The notes below the pieces were generated by a model, which was given only the letters and a program-made list of their open reading frames with translations, searched no databases and was not told the DNA's origin. A program made the translations under genes and the position numbers. This document shows positions 14,031 through 20,954 of a DNA stretch of 53,642 bases, piece by piece (the first letter of the stretch is position 1; each line of letters begins with the position of its first letter). The DNA comes from an uncultured Subdoligranulum sp. (GTDB lineage Bacteria; Bacillota; Clostridia; Oscillospirales; Ruminococcaceae), in assembly GCA_945830575.1 (NCBI GenBank), contig CALZZE010000018.1:1-53642 (forward strand), written 5' to 3'.

Positions 14031-17000
14031 TTAATAGGTGGTGATGGTGGTGCCGGGGAAGTAATGGGTCAGGATGCTCTGATAATCCCAGCCGTTCTGG
14101 GCGTAGCCGATGGCGCCCCACTGGCTCAGACCGCAGCCGTGGCCGTAGCCGTAGACGTCAAAAATGAAGCAGTCCAGCTCGGCATCGTAGGTAAAGGTAA
14201 AGCACTGGCTGCGCAGGCTGCGGCCGTCCACGCTCTGGCGGGCCAGCAGCGTTTCCCGGAACCAGCGGCCGGAGCAGGTGTCGTTGCCGCTCTCGTTGAG
14301 GCCGATCTGCACCTGACTGACCCAGCCGTACTCGTTGGCGGACAGAATGGTGAACCACTGGTTGGGGTCAAGACCGGACAGGTCCACCCCCATCTTGTCA
14401 AGGATGCGATCCTGCAGGGTCTGGCGGGCAAAGCGGGCGCTGCCGCTGGTGGCGCCGTTGGTGTGCCAGTTAGTAGCTACCTGCTGGTCATAGGGGCTGT
14501 CCACCGCCTGCAGCCAGGCACGTTCGCCGCCCCACACCTCCTTGGAGGAGGCGGTGCCGGTGGACGCGGAGGCAAAATACGGCGTGAAGCACACCTGCCC
14601 GTTGTAGGTGACCAGCACCCGCGCCACCTCCTCGGCGGCGGCACGGGCGGCCGCGCCGGGGGTCTGCCCCAGCACCGAAGGATAGCCGCCCTGACTCAAA
14701 ATCCAGCAGTGGGTAGCCACGCACTGGGCCTTGTAGGCCTCGGCGGGGGCGTTGGGGCCAAGCTCGTTCTGGGCCACCATGGCAAGGCACTCCACCAGAT
14801 CCATGGTCTGGGGGCTGCCGTTCATCGTCACGTTGATGGTTTCCCCCGCCGGGGACTGCGGCGCCGGGGGAGCCTCGGTGGGCTGCTCCGGGGGCTGGTC
14901 GGGCTGTTGTTCGCCGCCCGCCTCCGAGGAAGGCGCATCCGGTTCCTGCGCGGGCGCTTCGGTGGGTGCCTGCGTGGGGGCGGGCGTGCTTTCCGCCAGT
15001 TCCTCCACCGTGATGGTCTGCTCCGGCAGACCGCCCGCCGCGCCCTGATTCAGGTCCGTCTCGGCGGCGTTGCTCTGCCCCGCCACATCGGTGAGGCCCT
15101 TGAGAAATTCATCGGTGCTGGTGAGGATGGTCTGCGTCTGCTGGTTCAGCGCGTCGATGCGCTCGGACAGATTCCCGTTCCCTTCTATCTCCGTTTCCCC
15201 GGAGGGGTCCGCGGCCTGCGGCCTGACAAGGCTCTGGGAGGCATACCATGCCACCTGCTGGCTGAGCAGGCCGGTCACATCCGGCTTGCTCAGCCCGTTG
15301 GTGCGGTACTGGGTGTCACAGAGCAGCGGCTGCGCCGTCAGCTGGATGGCGGAGGGATCCAGATAGGCGGACTCCCCCTCCTCGATGAGGCGGCCGGTGA
15401 CGCACAGCGTCACGCCGTCCTCGGAGCTGGCGGCGGTGAGAGTGAGGAACCGGGAACCGTCCCCCACCTCGACGCCGGTGTCAAACAGACTGCGGGCCTT
15501 GACGCCGGTGACGAAGTTCAGATAATCATAATAAGCGGACAGGTCCCGCTGGGCCAGCAGCGTGGAGTCGCTGTCCAGATAATAGACCGCCAGCGTTTTG
15601 AACCGCCAGCTGCCATTTTGCTGGTACAGGGTAAAGCCGCTGTTGTTCTGGAAGTTCTCCAGCTGGTCCAGCCCGGACAGCAGCCTGCCGCCGCAGTGAA
15701 TGACGGTGTTGGAGGCGGTGGGCAGCCCCAGCAGATTGGCCCCCTCAAAGGCCGCAAAGGGCGCGGCGTCGGGGTCGTCCGAGACGGTGCCCTCCGGGTA
15801 GACGAACTGCCCGTCCAGACCGGGGAAGGCAAGGTAGCCCAGCACGCCGGGGCGCTTTTCCACAGCGGCGGCAAGATAGCGGCCTGCGGTCTCGTCAAAC
15901 AGCGTGGTGCCGTAGTTTTTGCTGTTGGGGCGTGCGCCGAGGTCGTTGCGGAGGAACCACCAGACGCCCCCCGCGATGGCCAGCGCCACCAGCAGCAGCG
16001 CCGCCAGCCCCATGACCACCGTGCGCTGACGGCGGCGCTCGGATTTTTCGATGACCTCCAGACTGCGGTTGCGGGAGGGGGCAAACCCGGCGGGCGCCGG
16101 CTCTTCCGGGGCCTCGAACAGCTTGGTGGCGGCCTGCTGCAGATCGCTGGTGCCATGCACACGGCCCGCAGCCGCATCGGCGTCATCGGCGGCGCGGGCG
16201 GCAGCCACGGCGTCCGGGTCCACTTTGAAATCCGGCACCTCCTGATCCAGCACCGAGGGCTGGGGGGTGCGGCGGATGGGCTGGGGTTTCTGGCGGGGCG
16301 GCGCGGGCTGCTCCCGCTGTGCCGCGTGGCGGGCCACCAACTCCTCCACCGGCGCATCAAAGGTGATGGTTCCGGTGCCCGGCTCCGCTTTCTGCGGCGG
16401 CGCGGGCTGCGGGCCAGGAACCCCGTCAAAATCCAGCATGGGTTCAAAATCCTGTGCGCCCGGGGTGGGATGGGCGCGGCGCAGCGAAAACCGGGTGGTG
16501 TTGCCCCGCGGCTCCCCTTCCCCGGAGACCAGCAGCAGCGGCCGCTCATGGCCGGGGCGGAAGGTGATGGTGCCCGGGCCGGGACGCAGATTCTGGGTGC
16601 GGCGGCGGGCCAGATCCAGAATCGTGTTGGCAATGACCGCGTCCCCCGCCTCCGGCGCAAGAGCGCAGGCCCATGCGCTGCGCTTGTCGCACAGCAGCAC
16701 AAAGGGGCCTTGTCCCACCGTGGCGGGCATGTACATGGCGGCGTAGTCCGCGCCGCCCAGCGCCAGAGCATTCTGCGCCCGGGCCGCAGCAGCCTGCACC
16801 ACATCCCCGGGGAATTTGCCCAGCCACGCGGGCTGCTGCGTCAGCCGGGCGGTGCGCTGGGGATTGCCCCAGGTCTCGCTGCCGAAATCAAAAGCCGCCT
16901 CACTGTGCTGTAAGGGACGCAGCGGCGCGGAGAGCAGCTTTCCGGTGGTCTCGTCCGCCGCCACCAGCAGACGCCGCCGCTCCAGCAGCGCGTTCAGCGC

Positions 17001-17261
17001 CGCCTGCGCAAGGCTCATTTCCCCGATGGCATACACAGCGTCCCCGAAACGGGCGCGCAGCTTTTGGATCCATTTGTCGCAGTGGGCATCGGCCATTTCC
17101 TGCGTGGGGGCGCTGACCTGCACGCAGATGGCGTACTCGCCGTCCCGTTCCAGCAGACGCAGGCCGGGGCAGCCTTCCGCCTTGGCATTGCGCAGCTCGG
17201 CGGAAATATCCCCCGAGGGCAGGCCAAAGACGCGCAGGACTTTCAGTTGAGTTGGGAGCAT
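14031..17261 (-). CDS. CinA-like degenerate domain fused through a membrane helix to a SpoIID/LytB domain
   Basis: A 1076-residue membrane protein. Residues 1 to about 205 follow, in the same order, the KH-like and C-terminal (nicotinamide-nucleotide amidase) domains of CinA encoded immediately upstream. LKVLRVFGLPSGDI matches CinA's TLRVLGGE region, VAADETTGKLLSAPL sits where CinA has ATAESCTGGLVAEKL, and FDFGSETWGNPQRTARL matches FGFGFVTYAEAAKTRLL. The catalytic SCTGG is replaced, so this copy should be inactive. A disordered Pro/Ala-rich cytoplasmic linker (about 205-410) leads to one membrane helix (413-434), an extracytoplasmic region and a Pro/Thr-rich stretch. A SpoIID/LytB domain follows from about 805 to the end, with VECLAMVAQNELG (catalytic-glutamate region) and GYGHGCGLSQWGAIGYAQ. 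SpoIID-type domains are lytic transglycosylases acting on denuded glycan strands. GTGAGGT precedes the ATG. Confidence 0.8.
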   Translation of the reverse strand: MLPTQLKVLRVFGLPSGDISAELRNAKAEGCPGLRLLERDGEYAICVQVSAPTQEMADAHCDKWIQKLRARFGDAVYAIGEMSLAQAALNALLERRRLLVAADETTGKLLSAPLRPLQHSEAAFDFGSETWGNPQRTARLTQQPAWLGKFPGDVVQAAAARAQNALALGGADYAAMYMPATVGQGPFVLLCDKRSAWACALAPEAGDAVIANTILDLARRRTQNLRPGPGTITFRPGHERPLLLVSGEGEPRGNTTRFSLRRAHPTPGAQDFEPMLDFDGVPGPQPAPPQKAEPGTGTITFDAPVEELVARHAAQREQPAPPRQKPQPIRRTPQPSVLDQEVPDFKVDPDAVAAARAADDADAAAGRVHGTSDLQQAATKLFEAPEEPAPAGFAPSRNRSLEVIEKSERRRQRTVVMGLAALLLVALAIAGGVWWFLRNDLGARPNSKNYGTTLFDETAGRYLAAAVEKRPGVLGYLAFPGLDGQFVYPEGTVSDDPDAAPFAAFEGANLLGLPTASNTVIHCGGRLLSGLDQLENFQNNSGFTLYQQNGSWRFKTLAVYYLDSDSTLLAQRDLSAYYDYLNFVTGVKARSLFDTGVEVGDGSRFLTLTAASSEDGVTLCVTGRLIEEGESAYLDPSAIQLTAQPLLCDTQYRTNGLSKPDVTGLLSQQVAWYASQSLVRPQAADPSGETEIEGNGNLSERIDALNQQTQTILTSTDEFLKGLTDVAGQSNAAETDLNQGAAGGLPEQTITVEELAESTPAPTQAPTEAPAQEPDAPSSEAGGEQQPDQPPEQPTEAPPAPQSPAGETINVTMNGSPQTMDLVECLAMVAQNELGPNAPAEAYKAQCVATHCWILSQGGYPSVLGQTPGAAARAAAEEVARVLVTYNGQVCFTPYFASASTGTASSKEVWGGERAWLQAVDSPYDQQVATNWHTNGATSGSARFARQTLQDRILDKMGVDLSGLDPNQWFTILSANEYGWVSQVQIGLNESGNDTCSGRWFRETLLARQSVDGRSLRSQCFTFTYDAELDCFIFDVYGYGHGCGLSQWGAIGYAQNGWDYQSILTHYFPGTTITTY

Positions 17262-17287
17262 GTTGTTACCTCACGGTTGACGCATTA

Positions 17288-18586
17288 TCAGAAAACGTAG
17301 TGTTCCGCCGGCTCCGCTGCGGTGGTGGGCACGGCGTTTTCCGGCGCAAGGCCCAGCGCCATGCGGCGGAACAGGTCCAGCGCATAGAGGGCGGCGCGGG
17401 TTCGGATGATGGCGCGGTCATGGTAGCCGCCCAGCTCCAGACGCTGCACCCAGCCGGCGCCGGTGCGGCGGTTCTCCCCCGCCAGATAGACGGTGCCCAC
17501 CGGCTTGTCCGGCAGTGCCCCGCCGGGGCCTGCAATGCCGGTGATGCCGATGGCAAGATCCGCCCCGGACACCTCCAGCGCGCCCCGGGCCATAGCCACC
17601 GCCACCGGGGCAGAAACCACGTTATACTGTTCAATCAATTCCGGGGAAACGCCCAGCAGTCTGGTTTTGGCGGCCTCGGCATAGGTGACAAAGCCAAAGC
17701 CGAACACCTCGCTGGAACCGGGCACGTTGGTGAGCTTTTCCGCCACCAGACCGCCGGTGCAGCTTTCCGCCGTGGCGGCGGTGAGGTGGTTTTCCACCAG
17801 CAGACGCACCACCGTGTACTCCAGCCCCGGCACATCCACATCGTAGGCGTTGGGGCCGAGCACTTCCCGGAATTGTGCCAGCTTTTCATCGCAAAGCCGC
17901 TCCGCCGCGGCCGCATCGGCGGCGCGGGCGGTGACGCGGATCTCGCTCTCCCCCGTCTTGCAGTAGATGGCGGCGGTGGGGTTTTCCCCGTCAAACAGGG
18001 CGGCGGCCTTGCTGGCGATGCTGCTCTCGCCGCCCAGCACCCGCAGCGTCTTGCTGTGGATGGTGCAGTTCTGCTTTGCCAGAAGCCGGGGACGCACCTG
18101 CTCCGCCCACATGGCCTTCATTTCCCGGGGCACGCCGGGCATCAGCGCCGCAGCGCAGCCCCCGTCCTCGAACCACGCCCCCGGCGCGGTGCCATGGGCG
18201 TTTTCCAGCTTGCAGCCGCGGGTGGGCACCATGGCCTGCTTGCGGTTGTTGGGGGTGGGACGGCGGTTGGTGCGGGCAAAAAAGTCCAGAATTTTCTGCC
18301 ACTCCGCCTCGTCAAAATGCAGCGTGTCCTCAAAGGCGGCGGCCACCGTCTCCTTGGTCAGGTCATCCTCGGTGGGGCCAAGCCCGCCGGAAAAAATCAG
18401 CAGATCGCTGCGGGATTTTGCCTGCCGCACCAGCTCTTCCAGCCGGGCGGGATTGTCCCCGATGACGTGCTGGTGCAGCACACTGATGCCCAGCTCCGCC
18501 AGTTCCCGGCTCAAAAACTGGGCGTTGGTGTTGACGATGTCCCCCAACAGCAGCTCGGTGCCCACACAGATGATCTCTGCGGTCAT
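17288..18586 (-). CDS. cinA: CinA family nicotinamide-nucleotide amidase / molybdopterin-binding-fold protein
   Basis: 432 residues with the full CinA layout. The N-terminal MoCF-like domain begins TAEIICVGTELLLGDIVNTN and has SGGLGPTEDDLT near residue 75. A KH-like middle domain follows, and then the C-terminal amidase domain with AESCTGGLVAEKLTNVPGSS (active-site serine) and AIGITGIAGPGG. CinA converts NMN to nicotinate mononucleotide and, through the N-terminal domain, can act on ADP-ribose. The true start is the ATG behind GTGAGG, 10 bp after the thiI stop; the longer open frame is not coding. It sits directly upstream of the gene that carries a degenerate CinA-like domain. Confidence 0.92.
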   Translation of the reverse strand: MTAEIICVGTELLLGDIVNTNAQFLSRELAELGISVLHQHVIGDNPARLEELVRQAKSRSDLLIFSGGLGPTEDDLTKETVAAAFEDTLHFDEAEWQKILDFFARTNRRPTPNNRKQAMVPTRGCKLENAHGTAPGAWFEDGGCAAALMPGVPREMKAMWAEQVRPRLLAKQNCTIHSKTLRVLGGESSIASKAAALFDGENPTAAIYCKTGESEIRVTARAADAAAAERLCDEKLAQFREVLGPNAYDVDVPGLEYTVVRLLVENHLTAATAESCTGGLVAEKLTNVPGSSEVFGFGFVTYAEAAKTRLLGVSPELIEQYNVVSAPVAVAMARGALEVSGADLAIGITGIAGPGGALPDKPVGTVYLAGENRRTGAGWVQRLELGGYHDRAIIRTRAALYALDLFRRMALGLAPENAVPTTAAEPAEHYVF

Positions 18587-18596
18587 ACAAATCGCC

Positions 18597-19787
18597 TCAC
18601 TCAAACTCCTGTCCCATCCGGACAGGGATTTTTTCCACATTCGCGGCGGCCTGCTCCTCCAGCGCCAACAGCTCCGGCATGGCGGCCTCCGCTTCCAGAA
18701 TTTCCGCCAGCGTGGGGTTGGTCTTGGGATGGGGCGGCGTAAAGATGGTGCAGCAGTCCTCATACGGCTCGATGGAAGTTTCAAAGGTGCCGATCTTGCG
18801 GGACCGCTCGATGATTTCGGTTTTGTCCATGCCGATGCAGGGACGCAGCACCGGCAGATCCTGCGCCGCATCGGTGCAGGCCAGCGCGGCCATGGTCTGG
18901 CTGGCCACCTGCGCGAGGCTTTCGCCGGTGATGAGCGCCTCCAGCTCCAGCTGTTTTGCCACCCGGTTGGCGATGCGCAGCATGCTGCGGCGCATCAGAA
19001 CCGTAAACAGCACATCCGGCGCGTGGTCACGGATATACTCCTGCGGTTTGGTGTAGGGCACCACGAACAGGGTGCAGTTGCCGGTGTATTCCACCAGTTC
19101 CTTTGCCAGCGTGCAGACCTTCAATTTAGCCCGGAGGCTGGTGTAGGGCGGGCTGGCGAAGTGGATGTGGTGCAGCGCCAGACCCCGCCGGGCCATGCAC
19201 CAGGCCGCCACCGGGCTGTCGATGCCGCCGGACAGCAGGTTCAGCGCCCGGCCGCTGGTGCCCACCGGCAGGCCGCCCGCGGCCTCGGTCTTGGGGCCGT
19301 GGATGTAGGCCTTGCCTTCACGAATTTCCACCATGATCTCCAGCTGGGGATGATGCACATCCACCCGCAGATGATGGTGCTTGTCCAACAGATACGCCCC
19401 CAGTTCCCGGCAGATCTCCGGGCTTTTCATGGGGTACTGCTTGTCGGCCCGCTTGGCCTCCACCTTGAAGGTTTTTGTGCCCCGCAGCGTCTGGCCCAGA
19501 TAGGCCTCGGCGGTCTCGCAGATGGTGGCAAAATCCGCGTCGCAGACGGCGGCACGGCTCAGCTTGACGATGCCGAACACATGGGAAATACGGCGGTAGG
19601 CCTCGTCGGTGTCGCAGTCCTCCTCCAGCGGTTCGATGAACACAGTGCTCTGGGAGGAGCGCACCTTGAATTTGCCCAGCCCCTCCAGCCGCCAGCGGAT
19701 GATCTTGATAAGGCGGGCCTCAAATTTGCCCCGGTTCAGTCCTTTCAGGGTCATTTCCCCCTGATAGGCAAGAATCAGTTCTTTCAT
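18597..19787 (-). CDS. thiI: tRNA 4-thiouridine synthase ThiI
   Basis: Adds sulfur to U8 of tRNA (the s4U near-UV sensor base), using ATP to adenylate the uridine. 396 residues. The N-terminal ferredoxin-like/THUMP part ends near residue 170. The PP-loop NLLSGGIDSPVAAW then lies near 190, followed by HIHFASPPYTS and later GESLAQVASQTM. It ends without a rhodanese domain, as in the short Gram-positive ThiI, which takes sulfur directly from a partner cysteine desulfurase. That partner gene is immediately upstream, and AAGGAG for thiI overlaps its stop. Confidence 0.94.
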   Translation of the reverse strand: MKELILAYQGEMTLKGLNRGKFEARLIKIIRWRLEGLGKFKVRSSQSTVFIEPLEEDCDTDEAYRRISHVFGIVKLSRAAVCDADFATICETAEAYLGQTLRGTKTFKVEAKRADKQYPMKSPEICRELGAYLLDKHHHLRVDVHHPQLEIMVEIREGKAYIHGPKTEAAGGLPVGTSGRALNLLSGGIDSPVAAWCMARRGLALHHIHFASPPYTSLRAKLKVCTLAKELVEYTGNCTLFVVPYTKPQEYIRDHAPDVLFTVLMRRSMLRIANRVAKQLELEALITGESLAQVASQTMAALACTDAAQDLPVLRPCIGMDKTEIIERSRKIGTFETSIEPYEDCCTIFTPPHPKTNPTLAEILEAEAAMPELLALEEQAAANVEKIPVRMGQEFE

Positions 19788-19796
19788 AGTTTCTCC

Positions 19797-20954
19797 TTAA
19801 ATATGCTGCAGCTCGTTCAGGCCATCCCGCAGACCCGCCAGCAAGGCGTCCACATCGGCCTCGGTGTTGTCGGCGCAGAAGCTCACCCGCAGGGCGGTTC
19901 TGACGGCGGTGTCGTCCAGTCCCATCGCCATCAGCGTGTGACTGGGTTCCCCCTTGTCGCAGGCGGAACCGCCGGAAACGTAAATCTGCCGGGTGCTGAG
20001 ATAGTTGATGAAGGTCTGGCTGTTGACGCAGCCGGTGGAAAAGTTGACCACCTCCGCCACGGCGTTCTGCGGCGAATGAACGGTGATGCCGTCCAGCTCC
20101 GCCAGCCCTTCCCGCAGCCGCCGGTTGAGGGCCGCCATGTGGTTCTGACGGCTTTTCAGCGTTTTGGCGCCGTTTTGCGCCGCCACGCCAAGCCCCGCCG
20201 CGTAAGGCACGTTCTCGGTGCCGGGGCGCAGTCCCCGCTCCTGATGACCGCCCAGATAAGGCGGGCGCAGCGTCTGGCGCTGGTTGTCGCAGAGGAACAG
20301 CGCGCCGATGCCCTTGGGCGCGTGAACCTTGTGGCCGGACAGCGAGAGGGTGTCCACCCCTTTCCACTGTTTCAGGTCGATGGGCATGCGCAGCCATGCC
20401 TGCACCGCGTCCACATGGAAATGGGTGCGGCTGTTTTTCTTTTTGACGCCCGCCGCCAGCGCGGCGATGTCCTGCACCGCGCCGGTCTCGTTGTTCACCG
20501 CCATGCAGGCGGCCAGCACGGTGCGTTTGTCCACCGCCGCAAGGAATTTTTCCGTGGACAGGGTGCCGTCCCTCTCCGGCAGAATTTCCACCACGGTGAA
20601 CCCGAAGTCCCGCAGCGCCCGGATGGGCCGCTGCACGCTGGGATGCTCAAAGCCGGAGACAACGATTTTATCGCCCCAGTCCCGCCGGGGCAGCGCCGCG
20701 CCCCACACCGCCATGTTGTTGCTCTCCGACCCGCAGGCGGTGAAATACACCTCGTCACTGCGGCAGTTCAGCGTTTTGGCCACCCGGGCGCGGGCGGTTT
20801 CCAGCGAGAGCTGGCTTTCCACCGCCGGGTCGTACAGACTGCTGGGGTTGGCCCAGCGGGCCAGCATCGCCTGATGGATGGCCTGTGCCACCTGAGGGTC
20901 CACCATGGTGGTGGCGGCATTATCCAAATAATGAAGGGATTCGTTCAAGCGCAT
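19797..20954 (-). CDS. Cysteine desulfurase (NifS/IscS family), partner of ThiI
   Basis: PLP enzyme that removes sulfur from cysteine and passes it as persulfide. 385 residues. Visible are YLDNAATTMVDPQV at the N-terminus, the PLP lysine in LSLSGHKVHAPKG near residue 205, and the catalytic cysteine in YVSGGSACDKGEPSH near 325. Its position directly before thiI is the arrangement known for Bacillus nifZ-thiI, so its main task is probably sulfur supply for s4U. First gene of the operon continuing to thiI, cinA, the SpoIID fusion and xth. GAGGTG precedes the ATG. Confidence 0.92.
   Translation of the reverse strand: MRLNESLHYLDNAATTMVDPQVAQAIHQAMLARWANPSSLYDPAVESQLSLETARARVAKTLNCRSDEVYFTACGSESNNMAVWGAALPRRDWGDKIVVSGFEHPSVQRPIRALRDFGFTVVEILPERDGTLSTEKFLAAVDKRTVLAACMAVNNETGAVQDIAALAAGVKKKNSRTHFHVDAVQAWLRMPIDLKQWKGVDTLSLSGHKVHAPKGIGALFLCDNQRQTLRPPYLGGHQERGLRPGTENVPYAAGLGVAAQNGAKTLKSRQNHMAALNRRLREGLAELDGITVHSPQNAVAEVVNFSTGCVNSQTFINYLSTRQIYVSGGSACDKGEPSHTLMAMGLDDTAVRTALRVSFCADNTEADVDALLAGLRDGLNELQHI

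Follow-up and report, generated by a model that had tools for sequence, protein, structure and literature searches.

P0001, a 1076-residue protein encoded on the reverse strand of the window (the whole stretch of DNA analysed, 53,642 nucleotides), is most likely a membrane-anchored lytic transglycosylase of the SpoIID type, judged from its sequence, and it carries a CinA-like module and a class B sortase-like module that have both lost catalytic residues. We consider it probable, though well short of settled, that P0001 descends from the C-terminal part of an ancestral fusion that split, and that it serves as a glycan-cutting wall enzyme with a dead CinA scaffold and a dead sortase spacer.

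Architecture of P0001

The P0001 gene starts 26 bp after the end of cinA (Table 1). Because a Shine-Dalgarno-like GAGG precedes the ATG, the short N-terminus, which lacks the MoCF domain, is the probable start of the protein. Gemmiger is used here, by kinship, as the genus name for the source genome and its closest relatives, and all 35 of the 35 genus members examined, the source genome among them, had a P0001 match with an E value no higher than 2.0e-106. The single transmembrane helix reached a mean hydropathy of 2.63 over 19 residues, and this one hydrophobic segment together with the preceding ERRRQR suggests that the N-terminus lies inside the cell. An earlier note on this DNA had described a protein that crosses the membrane once and carries a SpoIID domain on the outside; the one hydrophobic segment and the SpoIID family match over its cut-off agree with that description, the outer location being a predicted one. 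The modules it listed (CinA, transmembrane helix and SpoIID) were right, but the degenerate sortase B domain between helix and SpoIID had been overlooked.

Table 1. Features of the P0001 locus (positions in the window)
Feature	Position	Strand	Basis
P0001, 1076 aa: pseudo-CinA (KH+amidase) - TM - pseudo-sortase B - SpoIID/LytB	14034..17261	-	ORF translation, family and fold searches
SpoIID/LytB domain, residues 804-1076	14034..14852	-	TIGR02669 and Foldseek
E833, aligned with catalytic E101 of C. difficile SpoIID	14763..14765	-	weak local alignment to 5txu; invariant 29/29
Pro/Glu/Ala-rich outer linker, residues 746-800	14862..15026	-	sequence; pLDDT below 50 over most of it
Class B sortase fold, residues 442-629, Cys and His gone	15375..15938	-	profile and fold searches
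Transmembrane helix, residues 415-437, ERRRQR before helix	15951..16019	-	hydropathy
Long cytoplasmic linker (predicted), residues 236-408	16038..16556	-	sequence; median dN/dS 0.50 (residues 236-410)
Amidase (PncC)-like domain, residues 82-228, catalytic residues gone	16578..17018	-	sequence alignment, fold match
Active-site motif remnant D103-E104-T-T-G-K replacing E-S-C-T-G-G	16938..16955	-	alignment
KH-like domain, residues 4-79	17025..17252	-	PF18146 E 2.1e-5; fold match to CinA
Shine-Dalgarno-like GAGG, 7 bases upstream of P0001 ATG	17269..17272	-	sequence
cinA, intact MoCF-KH-amidase	17288..18586	-	NF001813 458 bits, cut-off 379
thiI (presumed), upstream neighbour conserved at fusion locus	18597..19787	-	name assigned from sequence
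Cysteine desulfurase (iscS-like; presumed), usual neighbour further upstream	19797..20954	-	name assigned from sequence

The CinA-like module is catalytically dead and under constraint

Fold search and alignment both placed the KH and amidase fold of CinA in residues 4-229, and P0001 and CinA are homologous across 223 columns. Chance similarity was ruled out by the alignment and the fold matches. Against NF001813 the protein scored 48.2 bits, below the cut-off of 379, and no PF00994 (MoCF) match was found in it at E 1. The Ser/Lys catalytic dyad of A. tumefaciens CinA is given as S31/K63 (PMC5384747). Among 29 aligned Gemmiger sequences the Ser column held Glu in 29/29 and the Lys column held Lys in 5/29. 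Neither the TG of TGIAG nor the Gly/Ser of the CinA phosphate site was kept, and the TGIAG loop was unrecognisable. The catalytically dead KH and amidase domains, the lost MoCF domain and the CinA fold of the N-terminal segment, all anticipated in the earlier note, are thus borne out by the PF18146 match, the fold match, the Ser to Glu replacement and the missing PF00994 match.

The module was in frame in all 29 copies, with a mean column identity of 80%. Median dN/dS was 0.28 for the pseudo-CinA, 0.23 for SpoIID, 0.50 for the sortase-like module and 0.50 for the linker, in 322 of the 406 pairs of the 29 sequences (those whose dS lay within 0.1-1.5 for each of the four segments), values that serve only for comparing domains because dS was high. 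By identity and by dN/dS alike, the dead CinA module is constrained. D103, E104, H119 and E121, in or near the old active-site motifs, were invariant in 29/29 Gemmiger sequences. A new active site made of these four residues was considered and rejected, as 10 P0001-type genes of sister genera had Glu at 104 in 6/10 and H119 and E121 in 0/10.

The sortase-like and SpoIID modules

Residues 442-629 adopt the sortase B fold by fold and profile searches. A profile search of this segment matched sortases and, weakly, antibodies (best 5.1e-5), and the P0001 segment alone had no match in Pfam. The catalytic Cys column held Cys in 0/29 Gemmiger sequences and the His column held His in 1/29 (L024), with Gly in P0001. 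For the catalytic Arg, an Arg was found close by in most sequences, while the aligned column, in a gapped alignment, held varied residues.

The SpoIID domain kept its catalytic residue. P0001 matched TIGR02669 at 107.7 bits, over the cut-off of 83.3, and its SpoIID domain matched 5i1t by Foldseek at E 2.6e-11. Against TIGR02870, the stage II sporulation protein D equivalog, the score was 94.5 bits, below the cut-off of 234.75. The catalytic Glu of C. difficile SpoIID is E101 (PMC6221140), with which E833 of P0001 aligns. Elsewhere in the source genome we observed another SpoIID-like gene (G000:C4:106355-106894) and, in tandem, sigma factors resembling sporulation sigma-E (G000:C6:80767-83022; 318 bits, cut-off 348.6); with these the genome may keep sporulation genes.

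Conservation of the locus

The neighbouring cinA was the only over-threshold PF02464 match in the source genome. It lay upstream of the P0001 gene in 14/14 titled-record loci compared, so the pairing with a real cinA pointed out in the earlier note holds, and a search for the gene pair in relatives found P0001-type genes next to cinA in six other genus codes as well; in g134 the neighbour was an amidase-only gene. At two loci (L058:6323-6892 and L059:6041-6610) the stand-alone gene beside the P0001-type fusion encoded 190 aa that consist of just an amidase domain, in which AESLTGG replaced AESCTGG.

The gene upstream of cinA is, judged from its sequence, presumably thiI. In 59/61 loci thiI immediately preceded the first frame with CinA and shared its strand, at -178 to 371 bases from the thiI match to the edge of that frame. 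Of the two other loci, L073 is truncated by the end of its contig and L095 had no thiI match. A further gene, presumably an iscS-like cysteine desulfurase and likewise recognised from sequence, usually preceded thiI at the CinA fusion loci.

One-gene CinA fusions in relatives

Relatives were found with the sortase-like profile and PF18146 across the GTDB family, and the loci fetched were scored with home-made profiles. By the PF18146 search, a CinA KH domain in a frame of more than 700 aa occurred in at least 45 of 148 sampled genomes of the family, a lower bound because KH-degenerate fusions escape the search; the count includes 7 of the P0001 type and excludes a contig-edge frame of 585 aa. 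The fetched loci held 46 one-gene fusions, with the CinA motifs kept in 21 and degenerate in 25; two other families within the order contributed 4 of the 46. The sortase profile matched 44/46 (exceptions L085 and L087), and the sortase His, Cys and Arg were all present in 12/21 fusions with intact CinA and 22/25 with degenerate CinA. SpoIID was encoded within the same gene in 21/46 and in an adjacent gene in 8 more. The L105 fusion had no MoCF match. A hydrophobic segment (mean hydropathy 1.66 or more) followed the CinA part in 60/60 fused frames scored. When seven fused proteins were scanned with Pfam, CinA-part domains were found in 7/7, sortase over cut-off in 6/7 (not L062), and SpoIID at E 0.1 or better in 3/7 and over cut-off in 2/7.

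Several loci varied in their wall parts. The fusion at L070:3595-6540 (genome G225) ended in a glucosaminidase domain (PF01832) instead of SpoIID, a different wall enzyme in the same frame, and its sortase was the sole PF04203 match of that genome. At L051 SpoIID was the next gene after the CinA-sortase fusion; in this SpoIID protein (L051:6232-7758) the end motif (GYGHGVGMSQWGA) precedes the part with the catalytic Glu, and it looks circularly permuted. In three genomes from a different family of the order, the CinA-sortase fusion was followed on its strand by a separate gene resembling sortase B (L106:2562-3428, L107:3197-4132 and L108:3853-4773). At L052 (G036:C3:198000-206000) two sortase B-like frames lay beside a SpoIID gene, with CinA and thiI unmatched within 8 kb.

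Wider sampling used PF02464, a model which misses strongly degenerate CinA. Across the order 116/127 genomes had a match, 4 of them with a frame of more than 700 aa (G050, G039, G271 and G255), and across the class, CinA frames of more than 600 aa were absent among the 140 PF02464-positive of 156 genomes searched.

State of the fused CinA and CinA copy number

CinA was called intact when AESCTGG, Tyr/Lys and TGxAG were kept. Copy number was taken from PF02464 matches in 62 genomes with a fused CinA, and the motifs were read in 61 of them; G082 was called degenerate on score alone (41 bits), and L093, L101 and L104 had no amidase match. An intact fused CinA was the sole PF02464 match in 21/21 genomes, some of which could be missing a second cinA because they are incomplete (G226 79%, G035 84%, G101 89%). 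Where the fused CinA was degenerate (41 genomes, source genome included), another PF02464 match was found in 40/41, the exception being G090 (91% complete). The second match was an amidase-only gene in four genomes (G167, G245, G210 and G118). The cases are related by descent, and the ThiI tree offered the rule just 2 independent pairs on branches with good support, too few to reach significance (p 0.5). The pattern suggests that a fused CinA carries the enzyme function when it is alone and may lose it otherwise, with the CinA-like module usually retained. The hydrophobic segment behind CinA in the frame indicates that the sole CinA of 21/62 genomes is probably tethered to the membrane, and a SpoIID or CinA annotated in such genomes may be one multi-domain membrane protein. 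Free sortases showed no clear pattern across 22 genomes as an explanation of the decay of the fused sortase.

Trees and the origin of the cinA-P0001 pair

In the CinA tree the cinA genes beside P0001-type genes were sister to the intact fused CinA of L062 (98/93; 12 rows), and in the first CinA tree L081 and L085 also joined this clade (SH-aLRT 99). Ordinary stand-alone cinA genes were placed elsewhere (39 rows, SH-aLRT 99), except L144, which stood beside a fused row. For the second CinA tree 16 ordinary stand-alone cinA were thinned out and rows without a KH match were excluded; of the 25 fused degenerate rows 12 were kept, all with an amidase score above 75 bits. The ThiI tree joined the 14 P0001-type loci with L062 (100/91), a long row (0.99), and then with the one-gene intact fusions L081 and L085 (98/92). 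In the SpoIID tree, from which L051 and SpoIID rows under 70 bits were left out, the P0001 type, L073 and L062 grouped together (96/83), with a weak position of L062 inside the group (95/60). The pseudo-CinA clade was too diverged to be placed by its own sequence tree, where it formed a long branch, and a joint clade with the neighbouring cinA was not rejected (p-AU 0.164).

The pair most likely arose by the split of one ancestral fusion, because relatives carry fusions at the same locus, the copy-number pattern fits, and the neighbouring cinA stands beside fused CinA in the trees. The ancestor would have joined a cytoplasmic MoCF-KH-amidase CinA, a transmembrane helix, a class B sortase and SpoIID/LytB in one protein encoded directly behind thiI. 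It would have duplicated in tandem at its own locus, followed by reciprocal loss in which each half dropped what the other kept: one copy would have become the stand-alone cinA next door, keeping the CinA catalytic motifs, and the other P0001, keeping the wall part. The earlier note had proposed another course, a tandem duplication of cinA in which the copy gave up MoCF and its active site. Here an ordinary cinA would have been copied within Gemmiger, and the copy would then have been joined for the first time to a membrane protein of the SpoIID kind. The adjacency and homology of the two genes fit such a course, as does the joint clade that was not rejected. However, other genera, the nearest sister L062 included, carry one-gene CinA-TM-sortase(-SpoIID) fusions at this thiI locus, and the neighbouring cinA clusters with fused CinAs, apart from ordinary stand-alone ones, and we regard this origin as very improbable.

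Proposed role of the dead modules

Under the split-fusion reading the dead CinA module may act as a cytoplasmic dimerising scaffold or anchor for the outer SpoIID-type glycan-cutting enzyme, and the dead sortase may form a spacer at the membrane or a domain for binding there. We propose a dimerising scaffold from the constraint on the dead CinA and from Thermus CinA, whose KH and amidase domains share a two-fold dimer axis (PMC4246079).

The constraint also bears on whether the pseudo-CinA is a decaying, functionless remnant and the SpoIID domain alone matters. Loss of catalytic residues from both the CinA and sortase domains would fit decay, as would the presence of another CinA where CinA has degenerated. 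Against this, all 29 Gemmiger copies were in frame and the dN/dS of the module was near that of SpoIID and under that of the linker, so a remnant is disfavoured and seems quite unlikely. Dead enzymes often turn into sensors, and the kept fold, the strong conservation within Gemmiger and the four invariant residues of the old active-site region could point to a sensor that responds to NMN, NAD, ADP-ribose or some other nucleotide and gates, through the membrane, the wall enzyme outside. However, the catalytic Ser/Lys, the TG of TGIAG and the phosphate-site residues are gone, and sister genera keep neither H119 nor E121 and only partly E104. The NMN sensor suggested in the earlier note thus found no positive evidence, and a ligand sensor of any kind appears unlikely on present sequences.

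Significance and comparison with known systems

In the openly licensed literature, outside which most subscription journals lie, we found no paper that names both CinA and SpoIID, with or without sortase, in keeping with the earlier note, which knew of no such architecture. Searches there for CinA-sortase fusions (judged by title) and SpoIID-sortase fusions matched papers on other subjects, while the search for inactive sortases matched papers on Lactococcus pili and the one for Gemmiger sortases a review on acne. CinA is occasionally fused to other domains, such proteins being set aside in PMC3855486, whose Figure 2 could depict a fusion of this kind. Each part is known; what appears to be new is how the parts are arranged, how widely the arrangement occurs and that it has split.

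More speculatively, and with more doubt than confidence, these gut Clostridia could hold a large undescribed trans-envelope family combining the NAD-salvage enzyme CinA, a sortase and a glycan-cutter. Whether still alive or dead, the cytoplasmic module would control or position wall processing, and P0001 would be a split pseudo-enzyme form of the family. To our knowledge pyridine-nucleotide recycling and surface-protein or wall processing are fields without prior contact, and P0001-type proteins would link them. At a single conserved locus, versions that are intact, half-dead or split form a natural series in which to ask what each module does.

P0001 shares the KH and amidase folds with CinA/PncC NMN deamidase (NF001813, PF18146+PF02464; 6mr3, 4ct8); unlike that enzyme it has no MoCF domain, Glu in place of Ser, an unconserved Lys and no recognisable TGIAG loop, and it is a predicted membrane-bound fusion. 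With class B sortase (TIGR03064; 5b23, 4ux7) its middle module shares the fold and the predicted site just outside the membrane, but it lacks the Cys (29/29) and His (28/29) and is placed between CinA and SpoIID. The SpoIID/LytB lytic transglycosylases (TIGR02669; 5i1t, 4rwr) have in common with P0001 the over-cut-off domain and the catalytic Glu, whereas P0001 falls under the SpoIID equivalog cut-off and carries the CinA and sortase modules. Finally, the one-gene CinA-TM-sortase(-SpoIID) fusions (such as L062, L066, L070 and L051) have the module order and thiI locus of P0001 and, in contrast to it, often retain catalytic residues in CinA, sortase or both.
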